Assembly: GCF_003670115.1 (NCBI RefSeq)
Contig: NZ_QQTY01000002.1
Span: forward strand, 806,001 to 870,000
DNA: 64,000 nucleotides
Reading direction: 5' to 3'
Source of the DNA: Natronorubrum halophilum
GTDB taxonomy: Archaea > Halobacteriota > Halobacteria > Halobacteriales > Natrialbaceae
Below, one piece after another: positions 37,897 through 42,482 of this stretch (positions are counted from its first letter, which is position 1; each line of letters opens with the position of its first letter). The notes beneath the pieces are model-generated. The model had not been told where the DNA came from, did no database searches, and saw only the letters and a program-made list of their open reading frames with translations. Position numbers and translations under genes: made by a program.

Positions 37897-39141
37897 ATGG
37901 CCACCGCCCCGGTCGAGTTCGTCGCCGAACCCTCGCTGACGCTGCAGTTGCTCGCGTGGATCGGGGCCGGCGCGACACTCGGCTGTTGTAGCGGTCTCGT
38001 GCCGGGACTCCACGCCAACAACTTCGCGCTCTTGCTCGCCGGCTTCGCGCCGTCGGTTCCCGGCCCGCCGCTGTTCGTCGGCTGTGCGATGCTCGCGGCC
38101 GGCGTCGTCCACACCTTTCTCAACGTCGTTCCCGCGATGGCACTCGGTGTCCCCGACGCGGAGATGGCCGTCACCGCCCTCCCGGGCCATCGAATGGTCC
38201 TCGAGGGACGGGGCTACGAGGCGATCCGCCTCTCCGCGCTCGGGAGCATTCTCGCGGTCCTCGCGGCGGTGCCACTCGCCGTCCCGATCACTTGGGGCGT
38301 GACGGCCGCGTATCCGACGATTCGGGACCATCTGGCGCTCCTGCTGGCGATGGTCATCGTCGGGTTGATCGCCTCGGAGCACACGTGGCGCGCCCGCGTC
38401 GGCGGCCTGCTTTCGTTCGCGCTCGCCGCCGGATTGGGCCTGCTCACGCTCGACCTCTCGACGGATGCGCCCCTCGAGGCCGGCGGGATGCTCGCACCAC
38501 TGTTCGCCGGCCTCTTCGGCGCGCCGGTGTTGATCGACGCGATTCGCGGGAGCGGTATCCCGCCCCAACGTGCCGACACGATTACAATGTCCGGTCCGCT
38601 CGTGACGCTGACGGCGCTCGCCGGCGCGCTCGCGGGTGCGATCGTCGGCTACATTCCCGGCATCTCAGCCGCGATCGCCGCGGTCGCGGTACTGGCGTTC
38701 GTCCCGGGGCACTCCGGTGATCGAGGCTACATCGTCGCGACGAGCGGCGTCGACACGGCAAATACGATCTTCGCGCTCTTTGCGCTGGTCGCTATCGGCC
38801 AGCCCCGAACCGGGGTGATGGTCGCCTTCGAGAGCCTTAACGCGCCGCTCGAGGTACCGATCCTCCTCGCGGGTGTCGTCCTCGCGGGACTGCTCGGATT
38901 CGTGCTCGTCATCGTCGTCGGGGACGCGTACCTCGAGACTGTCGGCCGAATGGAGTACTGGAAAATCTCGGTCGCGGTTCTCGGTCTCCTACTCGCCCTC
39001 TCGTACCTGTTTACCGGCGGTATCGGGATCGCCGTTTTCGTCGTTGCAGCCGGCGTCGGCATGGTTCCGGTGCGCTTGCGCGCCCGGCGCGTTCACCTGA
39101 TGGGGGTTCTGATCGGACCGTTACTGTTCAGTTTCTCGTAA
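37897..39141 (+). CDS. TctA-like (tripartite tricarboxylate transporter-type) permease
   Basis: A 414-residue integral membrane protein with about ten helices. It carries the family motif LGCCSGLVPGLHANNFALLL near the N-terminus and the matching GAIVGYIPGISAAIAAVAVL in the second half, showing the internal duplication of TctA proteins (both contain PG.(S/H)A). Bacterial TctA works with TctB and a periplasmic TctC, but no such partners are adjacent, so it may act alone as haloarchaeal members appear to. Substrate unknown. Confidence 0.82.
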   Translation: MATAPVEFVAEPSLTLQLLAWIGAGATLGCCSGLVPGLHANNFALLLAGFAPSVPGPPLFVGCAMLAAGVVHTFLNVVPAMALGVPDAEMAVTALPGHRMVLEGRGYEAIRLSALGSILAVLAAVPLAVPITWGVTAAYPTIRDHLALLLAMVIVGLIASEHTWRARVGGLLSFALAAGLGLLTLDLSTDAPLEAGGMLAPLFAGLFGAPVLIDAIRGSGIPPQRADTITMSGPLVTLTALAGALAGAIVGYIPGISAAIAAVAVLAFVPGHSGDRGYIVATSGVDTANTIFALFALVAIGQPRTGVMVAFESLNAPLEVPILLAGVVLAGLLGFVLVIVVGDAYLETVGRMEYWKISVAVLGLLLALSYLFTGGIGIAVFVVAAGVGMVPVRLRARRVHLMGVLIGPLLFSFS

Positions 39142-39237
39142 CGACAGCCGACCGGTCGACGATTTCTACGACTGGTTGTGAATGACGGACAAACGTTTTT
39201 GCTCGCCGTCGGTGTACTTCCCCGAGGTGTCAACAGG

Positions 39238-40050
39238 ATGGTAAACGCGACGATCGACGTCCTCTATCGCGGGGGACTCGAATGCGACCAGAACTACATG
39301 CTCGAGGGCCACACCCTCGGAACGCACGACGAACCCAACCCGGACGTGGACTACGACGAGATCCCCGTCTGGAGCCTCGTCATCGATCACCCCGAGGGGA
39401 CGATCCTCTGGGACACCGGCAACCACCACGAGGCGCTCGAGGGCCACTGGCCGGAAGGCCTGTTGCAGGCGTTCTACCCGTACAACGCCGACGAACACCG
39501 TCTCGACGACGACCTCGAGAAGGCGGGCTACGGCATCGACGACATCGACTACGTCTTCCAGTCGCACCTTCACCTCGACCACGCGGGTGGGTTGGAGTTC
39601 TTCGACGGCACCGACGTGCCGATCTTCGTCCACGAAAGGGAGATCAAGTACGCCTACTACAGCGCGAAAACCGACAAGGGGAGCGGGGCGTACATCCTCG
39701 AGGACTTCGACCACGACCTCAACTGGCAGGTCCTCCACCAGGATCGGGAGGAACACTTCGACGACCTCGAGTTCGTTCGGTTCCCCGGCCACACGCCGGG
39801 GCTGACCGGGAGCGTGATCCACCTCGACGACGACGGAACGCTCGTCTTCACCGGCGATCAACTCTACCGAGCGGAGAACTTCGAGGAGGAGATCCCGCTT
39901 GGCGCGTTGCTCCTCTGGGGCAAGACGGAGTGGTTCGAGAGCCTCCAGCGGATCAAGGAACTCGAGCGCCGCCACGGCGCCCAGATCGTGTACGGCCACG
40001 ACAGCGGTCAGTTCGAGGAGATTCGAGACGGATGGGGGACGGCGAGATGA
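39238..40050 (+). CDS. AHL/gamma-lactone lactonase-like metallo-beta-lactamase-fold hydrolase
   Basis: A 270-residue MBL-fold enzyme of the N-acyl-homoserine lactonase (AttM/AiiA) type. The metal ligands are all present: SHLHLDH (His110, His112, Asp114, His115), GHTPG (His185), TGDQL (Asp207) and YGHDS (His254). The ATG at 39238 fits the family length better than a GTG 60 bp upstream. The last four bases overlap the start of the iron alcohol dehydrogenase gene (ATGA). In Agrobacterium the related AttM/BlcC hydrolyses gamma-butyrolactone and is paired with a dehydrogenase of the same type. That suggests the natural substrate here is a small lactone rather than a signal molecule. Confidence 0.88.
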   Translation: MVNATIDVLYRGGLECDQNYMLEGHTLGTHDEPNPDVDYDEIPVWSLVIDHPEGTILWDTGNHHEALEGHWPEGLLQAFYPYNADEHRLDDDLEKAGYGIDDIDYVFQSHLHLDHAGGLEFFDGTDVPIFVHEREIKYAYYSAKTDKGSGAYILEDFDHDLNWQVLHQDREEHFDDLEFVRFPGHTPGLTGSVIHLDDDGTLVFTGDQLYRAENFEEEIPLGALLLWGKTEWFESLQRIKELERRHGAQIVYGHDSGQFEEIRDGWGTAR

Positions 40051-41366
40051 GCTACGATCGATCGGTCTCCGCCCCCGACCACGAACTCCAGCCCGAGACG
40101 GTCTGGCACCTCCAGATGCCACAGATCCGGTTCGGCCGCGACGCCGTCGAAGAGCTGTGCTTTCAGTTGGCCGACCTGGGTGTCAGCGCCGACGGCGGTG
40201 CTCACGGCCTCGTCGTCACGGACGAGAACTTGGTCGACATCGGTCACGTCGACCGCGTCACCGACCACCTGGAGGACGCGGGCTACGACGTCACCGTCTG
40301 GGACGGTGCCGAACGCGAGCCGTCGATCGAGAACGTCGACACCTGTCTCGAGTTCGTCCGCGAGAACGAGGGCGAGGCAGGCTACGACTTCTACGTCGGC
40401 TTCGGCGGCGGCAGCTGTATCGACGTGGCGAAGACGACCCGCGCGGTGATCGCCAACGGCGGACAGGTGCTCGATTACATCGCCGAGCCGACGGGCGAGG
40501 GCGAAGCGCTGACCGATTCGGGGCCGCCGCTCGTCCTCATGCCGACGACGGCGGGGACCGGCGCGGAAATCTCGCCCGTCGCCATCCTCTCGGTCGAGGA
40601 AAAGGAGATCAAGGAGGGTATCTCGAGCAACCACGTCCGGGCCGACGCGGCCGTCCTCGATCCCACGTTTACGACGACGCTGCCCGCCGAGATGTCGGCC
40701 AAGACCGCGATGGATGCGCTGGGCCACGCCATCGAGGGCTACACGACCCACCCGTTCGACGGCCTCCTGCGGGCGTCGGATCCCGAGTCGCGGCCCGTCT
40801 ACGCCGGTCGGACGGAACTCACCGAGATGTTCTCGGAGAAGGCGATCGACCTCCTCTCGAGTAACGTTCGTACCGCGGTCCACAACGGGGACGATCTCGA
40901 GGCTCGATCGGGGATGCTCAAGGGTGCCCTGTTCGGCGCGATAGCGGGCCTGACGGCCGGCGCGAGCCTCTGTCACGCGATGGCCTATCCCGTCGGGAAC
41001 CGGTACCACACCTACCACGGCGAGACCATCGCTACCCTCACGCCCGCGACGACGCTGGGGTACAACGTCGCCAGCGATCCGGAACGGTTCGTCGCGGTCG
41101 CTGAGATGCTGGGTGCCGAGACCGACGGCATGGGCACCCGCGAGGCGGCAGATCAGGCCAGACGGGAGTACGTTCGCCTGCAACAGGACTTGAACGTTAT
41201 TCCCAGCGGCCTCAATGAACTCGCCGGGATCACCGAGGAGGACGTCGACTGGCTCGCGACTCAGACCGTCGAGACCCAACAACGGCTGTTGCGCTGTAAT
41301 CCCCGTCCGGTGACGGAAGCGGACGCCGCCGACATCTTTCGGGACGCGCTGTACAACTGGGAATAG
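40047..41366 (+). CDS. Iron-containing alcohol dehydrogenase (hydroxyacid-oxoacid transhydrogenase type)
   Basis: A 439-residue group III dehydrogenase. The NAD-binding GGGS is at about 120-123, TTAGTGAEISP at 167-177, and the Fe ligands Asp223, His227 (DALGHAIEGY), His310 (CHAMAYPVGN) and His324 (HTYHGET) are all there. The N-terminal HLQMPQIRFGRDAVEEL is typical of the HOT and 4-hydroxybutyrate dehydrogenase branch. Such enzymes oxidise 4-hydroxybutyrate to succinate semialdehyde, with NAD or by transfer to 2-oxoglutarate. The overlap with the lactonase gene indicates one transcript and linked function. Confidence 0.88.
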   Translation: MSYDRSVSAPDHELQPETVWHLQMPQIRFGRDAVEELCFQLADLGVSADGGAHGLVVTDENLVDIGHVDRVTDHLEDAGYDVTVWDGAEREPSIENVDTCLEFVRENEGEAGYDFYVGFGGGSCIDVAKTTRAVIANGGQVLDYIAEPTGEGEALTDSGPPLVLMPTTAGTGAEISPVAILSVEEKEIKEGISSNHVRADAAVLDPTFTTTLPAEMSAKTAMDALGHAIEGYTTHPFDGLLRASDPESRPVYAGRTELTEMFSEKAIDLLSSNVRTAVHNGDDLEARSGMLKGALFGAIAGLTAGASLCHAMAYPVGNRYHTYHGETIATLTPATTLGYNVASDPERFVAVAEMLGAETDGMGTREAADQARREYVRLQQDLNVIPSGLNELAGITEEDVDWLATQTVETQQRLLRCNPRPVTEADAADIFRDALYNWE

Positions 41367-41395: not shown

Positions 41396-42223
41396 CTACG
41401 AGTCGTTCGCTGCCGTTACCACCGATTCGACGCGCTTGCTCGAGACGCGGTTCGTCGTTTCGCTCCCCTCCTTGAGCGCCGTTCCGACGATGACACCGCG
41501 AGCACCCGCCTCGAGACAGTCACCGACGGTGTCGCTCGTCACTCCGCTGCCGACGAACACGGGAGCGGCGTTTTCCTCGCGATCCGAGAGCACGTCGGCG
41601 ACCCGTTCGACGTCCGCGAGCGCGGTTTCGTCGCCCGTGCCCGACCCGGAGACGATCACGCCGTCGGCCCGGCCGCGCTCGACGGTCTCGAGCGCCGCTC
41701 GTTCGATGTCGTCCGCGCCGATCGGGCTGGCGTGTTTGACGTGGACGTCGGCGAGGATCGCGACGGGCGCGTCGATCCGATCGCGGAGGCGAACGGTCTC
41801 GTGCGCTCGGCCCTCGACGACGCCCTGGTCGGTCGCGGCCGCGCCGACGTGGACGTTCACCCGCACGAACTCGGCACCCGCCGCGGCGGCGATCGAGAGG
41901 GCCGCCTCCGCGTCGTTTCTGAGCACGTTGATCCCGACGGGAACGTCGACGGCACTCGTCAGACTCGTTGCCAGCGCGGTCATCTCCGCCGCGACGTGCG
42001 TCGGAACGTCGTCGGGGTAGAACGGCGCGTCGCCGAAGTTCTCGAGCATAATTCCGTCGATCCCACCGGCCTCGAGGCGGCGTGCGTCCTCGAGCATCCG
42101 GCTCCGAACGGCGGCGCGATCACCGTCGAACCCCGGCGCGCCGGGCAGGGGCGGAAGGTGGATCATTCCGACGACGGGATGTTCCGCGTCGAACCGGTTC
42201 AGAAGCGGTGTCGGTGTGGACAT
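41396..42223 (-). CDS. BtpA/SgcQ family TIM-barrel protein
   Basis: A 275-residue protein with the BtpA pattern: VVGMIHLPPLPGAPGF near the N-terminus, GIDGIMLENFGDAPF, VGINVLRNDAEAALSIA, FVRVNVHVGAAATDQGVVEG and the C-terminal VFVGSGVTSDTVGDCLEAGA. Start 42223 (MSTPTPLL) is chosen because the upstream in-frame extension lacks conserved residues. BtpA supports photosystem I stability in cyanobacteria, while SgcQ sits in sugar operons. The archaeal role is unknown. It converges with the lactonase operon. Confidence 0.88.
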   Translation of the reverse strand: MSTPTPLLNRFDAEHPVVGMIHLPPLPGAPGFDGDRAAVRSRMLEDARRLEAGGIDGIMLENFGDAPFYPDDVPTHVAAEMTALATSLTSAVDVPVGINVLRNDAEAALSIAAAAGAEFVRVNVHVGAAATDQGVVEGRAHETVRLRDRIDAPVAILADVHVKHASPIGADDIERAALETVERGRADGVIVSGSGTGDETALADVERVADVLSDREENAAPVFVGSGVTSDTVGDCLEAGARGVIVGTALKEGSETTNRVSSKRVESVVTAANDS

Positions 42224-42482
42224 AGCGGTGGTGGGGACTCGAGTAAAATAAGTGATCGTGGAGACGGCCGGGTTCGAATATCCGGACCCGTAGCGACCGA
42301 CCCGGTATCGACGCGTCGTCCGGTAGCGACCAGTCGGTCGTAGTTCTAGCCTGTTCACTTCGAGTCTGAATTAGTGCCCGTGTATCCGTTTCGACCGAAC
42401 ATAGTCGAGAGCACTCCCAGTTTGAGGGAATGTGGTACGCTATTCAATAACTAACGGTTGGTAGTCTCCGGTGAGGACGCCC

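Follow-up and report, generated by a model that had tools for sequence, protein, structure and literature searches.

The window, that is, the whole 64,000-nucleotide stretch analysed (G000:C2:806001–870000 of a 4.67 Mb haloarchaeal genome, with Natronorubrum and Natronococcus as its nearest named relatives), carries a lactonase gene (start ATG at 39238, stop TGA at 40048–40050) and, immediately after it on the same strand, the gene of an iron-containing alcohol dehydrogenase (Fe-ADH, below ADH; start ATG at 40047, stop codon ending at 41366). The two open reading frames share the nucleotides ATGA, as a preliminary description of the locus had stated. The features are as follows.

39238–40050, + strand: lactonase gene, 270 aa, metallo-beta-lactamase fold, motif HxHxDH..H..D..H plus Tyr210
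40047–41366, + strand: Fe-ADH gene, 439 aa, HOT branch, ligands D223, H227, H310 and H324
40047–40050, + strand: ATGA stop/start overlap of the lactonase and ADH genes
40752–40805, + strand: codons of HOT insert 1 (about residues 236–253), as defined in PMC5125639
39142–39237, + strand: intergenic region 5′ of the cassette, with a putative AT-rich box AAACGTTTTT and a putative degenerate TTGT-N9-ACAA inverted repeat
37897–39141, + strand: TctA-family transporter, flank, outside the cassette, kept in all 10 genomes of the genus, whether or not they have the pair
41396–42358, − strand: BtpA-family protein, flank, outside the cassette, 68–93 bp from TctA in pair-less relatives

The neighbours of the pair in the window are TctA, BtpA, a HAD hydrolase, ribosomal proteins L1, L10 and P1 and others; the earlier remark that no semialdehyde dehydrogenase gene is adjacent is true here. 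Upstream of its ATG, the ADH frame remains open across the lactonase gene (39282–41366, + strand, 694 aa), likewise in several relatives, so that automatic annotation could miscall an overlong ADH start.

Conservation was surveyed in 243 genomes of the haloarchaeal order, with orthologues called at identities of at least 67% for the ADH and at least 68% for the lactonase. An ADH orthologue was found in 46 genomes, a lactonase orthologue in 39 and both in 36, and in all 36 the lactonase gene lay directly before the ADH gene with a gap of −7 to +8 bp. This pairing is far beyond chance and bears out the claim that the pair is conserved beyond the strain. At the level of named loci, the lactonase gene was directly 5′ of the ADH gene in 40 of 48, and stop and start overlapped or abutted in every one of these 40 (−13 to +1). 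Gene clustering revealed no other unit conserved past the synteny blocks of related species; the neighbours vary by genus, and some copies of the pair reside on megaplasmids (a plasmid of Natronococcus occultus SP4, for instance, carries it). In five same-genus genomes without the pair TctA and BtpA are separated by 68–93 bp, indicating that the pair comes and goes as a cassette; in pair-bearing genomes of the genus the interval is about 2.25 kb, with just the lactonase and ADH genes inside. TctA is also kept by the pair-less genomes of the genus and was therefore rejected as a third member of the functional unit. Ten genomes retained the ADH with no orthologous lactonase beside it, which indicates that the ADH has some lactonase-independent use; in one of them, G235, from the same family and another genus, the order is TctA-ADH-BtpA with the lactonase alone missing. 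Decaying copies were also seen, one with a lactonase gene followed by a 79-aa ADH remnant (L141 4280–5314) and one with both genes broken (G156:C34:19027–21141). The trees of the two proteins gave matching subclades (Halolamina with Natrialba asiatica, which belong to different families; Halorubrum with Haloprofundus; Haladaptatus with Halegenticoccus), so that the pair has probably been passed on as one unit, by inheritance and by joint transfer between lineages. A literature search, with most subscription journals outside its coverage, found no report of a lactonase-ADH pair in haloarchaea.

Both enzyme classes named in the preliminary description hold, since the Pfam scores were well above the cutoffs (Lactamase_B, 75.6 bits for the lactonase; Fe-ADH, 136 bits, and ADH_Fe_C, 112 bits, for the ADH). 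The metal ligands, described there as intact in both proteins, were invariant in the orthologue alignments: D223, H227, H310 and H324 of the ADH together with its GGGSxxD motif in 24 sequences, and H110, H112, D114, H115, H185, D207 and H254 of the lactonase together with Tyr210 in 18 haloarchaeal sequences.

The assignment of the ADH to the HOT branch was borne out by its position in the tree. When insert-1 columns were left out, the clade of pair ADHs (100/100) was nested in the HOT branch (99/98), which also holds haloarchaeal, Peribacillus and actinobacterial proteins named hydroxyacid-oxoacid transhydrogenase in RefSeq. Agrobacterium BlcB and the Bacillota lactonase-linked Fe-ADHs formed a separate branch (97/85), the inner order of which is unsure because some long branches meet there, and constraining the pair clade together with BlcB was rejected (p-AU 0.019). 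HOT has been defined by two inserts, insert 1 of about 19 residues between helices 5 and 6 and insert 2 of 13 residues between helices 8 and 9, the latter stated for all HOT proteins (PMC5125639). Insert 1 was present in the window ADH (about residues 236–253) and in the HOT-branch proteins, and missing in BlcB, FucO and the Bacillota lactonase-linked Fe-ADHs; insert 2 was a gap in the window ADH, its orthologues, the haloarchaeal HOT-annotated paralogues and Peribacillus HOT, and was present in Mycobacterium and Rhodococcus HOT. Therefore, the window ADH is a HOT-branch protein but not a canonical HOT, and transhydrogenase chemistry cannot be assumed for it because the second insert is missing. 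It has insert 1, the metal ligands, the NAD motif and the tree placement in common with the HOT subfamily (cd08190; animal ADHFE1), but differs in lacking the 13-residue insert 2 and in sharing an operon with a lactonase. A good AlphaFold model of the ADH (pLDDT 87) confirmed only the Fe-ADH fold; its nearest structures were methanol, propanediol and lactaldehyde enzymes, and insert 1 was poorly modelled at residues 241–251. In an orthologue without a lactonase (G078; L138 5597–6904, − strand), Gln replaces the metal ligand His227. Two haloarchaeal HOT-annotated paralogues, 43–44% identical (L122 3915–6257 and L127 152–2973), adjoin regulators of the IclR family, the regulator class of blc.

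The lactonase has the HxHxDH..H..D..H motif with the catalytic Tyr seen in AHL lactonases of the MBL fold, and its top NCBIfam matches are AHL lactonases, but it missed every curated cutoff (AhlS, 168.5 bits against 475; AttM, NF045700, 120.2 against 390, a model on which AttM of Agrobacterium C58 itself scores 486; AiiA, 110.8 against 375). Its top PDB matches are GcL AHL lactonases, and RefSeq labels its orthologues 'N-acyl homoserine lactonase family protein'. What it has in common with the GcL, AhlS and AiiA enzymes is family-level sequence similarity, the metal ligands and the catalytic Tyr. It is about equally far from AttM (30% identity) and from the GcL/AhlS type (32–33%), and among the deep branches of the lactonase tree the separation of AttM was the sole resolved split. 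The AlphaFold model of the lactonase, with a mean pLDDT of 70 and low confidence around the active site, was set aside. A second lactonase of the genome, 57% identical (G000:C2:582158–582943; L143 5153–5944), adjoins a branched-chain-type ABC transporter; in Natrinema thermotolerans and Halorientalis, its relatives and an AMP-binding acyl-CoA ligase are encoded head to head.

Upstream of the lactonase gene in close relatives (L066, L067, L180 and L181), a palindrome-like TGTG-N7-CACA sequence lies just 5′ of the AT-rich box, and the window has a degenerate version of it (about 39177–39193); this element is a possible operator. A scan of the upstream regions of the pairs found the motif in 4 of 49 (1.2 expected, shuffled maximum 6); no operator was conserved upstream of all pairs, the motif being confined to close relatives.

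A third gene accompanies the pair in some relatives. A 453-aa aldehyde dehydrogenase is encoded about 20 bp 3′ of the ADH gene in Halolamina salifodinae (L089), in a further Halolamina genome (G183; L195) and on pSTJ001 of Halobacterium hubeiense (L193), the only three pair loci seen with such a neighbour. The H. hubeiense protein is labelled NAD-dependent succinate-semialdehyde dehydrogenase (SSADH) in RefSeq and that of Halolamina scored best on the NADP-SSADH model (592 bits, cutoff 730), so the three are likely, though not certainly, of the succinate-semialdehyde type. Beside the pair, such a gene would complete a route from lactone through omega-hydroxy acid and semialdehyde to diacid. 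The window genome has a 64% identical homologue about 220 kb away (G000:C2:623951–625315); SSADH-like genes far from the pair are so common (a match at E≤1e-100 in 161 of the 243 genomes) that their joint occurrence with it carries no information. Candidate transporters 5′ of the pair differ by lineage (TctA in the window, SSF in Halolamina, TIGR00366 in N. occultus), and several pairs, like the 57%-identical lactonase paralogues, have AMP-binding acyl-CoA ligases nearby. In Peribacillus, Mycobacterium dioxanotrophicus and Rhodococcus, too, the bacterial HOT genes lie near SSADH genes. In M. dioxanotrophicus (L121 5971–10115) the HOT gene overlaps that of an FAD/Fe-S oxidoreductase, which could recycle D-2-hydroxyglutarate, with SSADH and MFS genes nearby. 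Candidate flavoproteins for this recycling exist in the window genome in several copies, none near the pair, and therefore say little about it.

The preliminary description had presented the pair as an archaeal counterpart of the blc/att module, which degrades gamma-butyrolactone in Agrobacterium (PMC5924552). As far as reaction logic is concerned, this stands: blcABC (attKLM) of Agrobacterium fabrum, on pAtC58, likewise joins a lactonase and an iron ADH (and an SSADH, as in the three relatives), and the predicted conversion of lactone to hydroxy acid and semialdehyde is the same. Descent from blc, on the other hand, was rejected. The ADH, 31% identical to BlcB, carries insert 1 and falls in the HOT branch, apart from BlcB, and the lactonase, 30% identical to BlcC/AttM, is far below the AttM cutoff. 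In addition, the Agrobacterium module has the order SSADH-ADH-lactonase with an IclR regulator, whereas the order of the haloarchaeal pair is reversed, no SSADH gene adjoins it in the window and no BlcR-type IclR regulator was found among the ten flanking genes scanned there. The haloarchaeal module thus looks as though it works like blc but was independently assembled. Plasmid cassettes of Bacillota provide another comparison: in Planococcus and Peribacillus (L128 5965–10018; L129 4539–8027) an AhlS/GcL-type 'quorum-quenching' lactonase gene directly precedes an Fe-ADH gene in a tight cluster with an aldehyde dehydrogenase gene, which suggests that these clusters also serve lactone catabolism; their Fe-ADH, however, lies outside the HOT branch and their lactonase is only 32–33% identical to that of the window. 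We take the haloarchaeal, blc and Bacillota arrangements to be at least two, and probably three, separate assemblies of one logic.

Taken together, we infer with reasonable confidence that the pair is a translationally coupled, mobile haloarchaeal catabolic cassette leading from a lactone through an omega-hydroxy acid and a semialdehyde to a dicarboxylate, blc-like but not blc by descent. The lactonase would open a small or medium lactone to the omega-hydroxy acid, the HOT-branch ADH would oxidise its terminal alcohol to the semialdehyde with either NAD or, in a transhydrogenation, an oxoacid as acceptor, and a semialdehyde dehydrogenase, encoded next door in a few species and elsewhere in the window genome, would yield the dicarboxylate. 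The likeliest single substrate, at somewhat less than even chances, is gamma-butyrolactone, with 4-hydroxybutyrate and succinate semialdehyde as the intermediates; close alternatives are delta-valerolactone, by way of 5-hydroxyvalerate, and a substituted lactone. Haloferax mediterranei fed gamma-butyrolactone puts 4-hydroxybutyrate into its polyester (PMC3880725), indicating that some haloarchaea can use this lactone. Against the main reading stand the scarcity of an adjacent SSADH-type gene (three of the pair loci seen), the ten genomes that keep the ADH with no orthologous lactonase next to it, the missing insert 2, and the acyl-CoA ligases near pairs and lactonase paralogues, which would also fit longer or acylated substrates. 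A stronger form, in which an independent haloarchaeal lactone cassette couples hydroxy acid oxidation to 2-oxoglutarate reduction rather than to NAD, and would give a prokaryotic HOT-branch protein its first physiological role, seems to us rather unlikely.

Quorum quenching or AHL catabolism, to which we give a small chance, would have the lactonase open AHLs from bacteria nearby, or an archaeal signal resembling them, and the ADH oxidise the freed primary alcohol of N-acyl-homoserine. The database matches and RefSeq names of the lactonase agree with this, and the acyl-CoA ligases beside pairs or lactonase paralogues resemble the Rhodococcus qsd operon, which consists of a lactonase and an acyl-CoA ligase (PMC6262395); but each AHL-lactonase cutoff was missed by more than half, and quenching needs no strictly linked hydroxy acid dehydrogenase. 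The view that AHL signalling is not to be expected in haloarchaea was too strong, since AHL-like bioassay activity is reported for N. occultus (PMC4187201), a species with the pair on a plasmid of SP4; nevertheless, AHL chemistry is unproven in haloarchaea, and diketopiperazines may account for such signals (PMC10223598). It is similarly improbable that the same two steps act on delta-valerolactone, epsilon-caprolactone or the lactone of a hydroxy fatty acid, with a diacid or acyl-CoA beta-oxidation as the outcome. This would fit the AMP-binding ligases encoded close to the pair in Haladaptatus, Halegenticoccus and H. hubeiense, the thiolase/OB-fold genes (G123) or acyl-CoA dehydrogenase gene (G104) that adjoin lactonase-less ADH orthologues, and the existence of CpnD, a 5-hydroxyvalerate dehydrogenase, among known Fe-ADHs (PMC5125639), but the aldehyde dehydrogenases of the three-gene loci are most like SSADH. 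Detoxification or metabolite repair, with the lactonase clearing spontaneously formed lactones and the ADH reducing aldehydes, is very improbable: the patchy, accessory distribution of the cassette and the reductases (FucO, 1,3-propanediol oxidoreductase) among the fold and NCBIfam neighbours of the ADH are consistent with it, but the aldehyde dehydrogenase of the three-gene version points to oxidation.

The pair is thus a real, conserved and probably catabolic cassette. A 2016 paper on iron alcohol dehydrogenases describes the role of HOT proteins outside animals as unknown (PMC5125639), and the strict conservation of the lactonase-ADH operon, joined in three species by a semialdehyde dehydrogenase, narrows the candidates to a small set of substrates and offers a testable clue to the function of the prokaryotic HOT branch. 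If the catabolic reading is true, archaea, Bacillota and Alphaproteobacteria each put together a lactone catabolism of their own, and many archaeal genes annotated as quorum-quenching lactonases may be catabolic. The cassette would also be a candidate haloarchaeal entry point for gamma-butyrolactone, the feed from which 4-hydroxybutyrate bioplastics are made.
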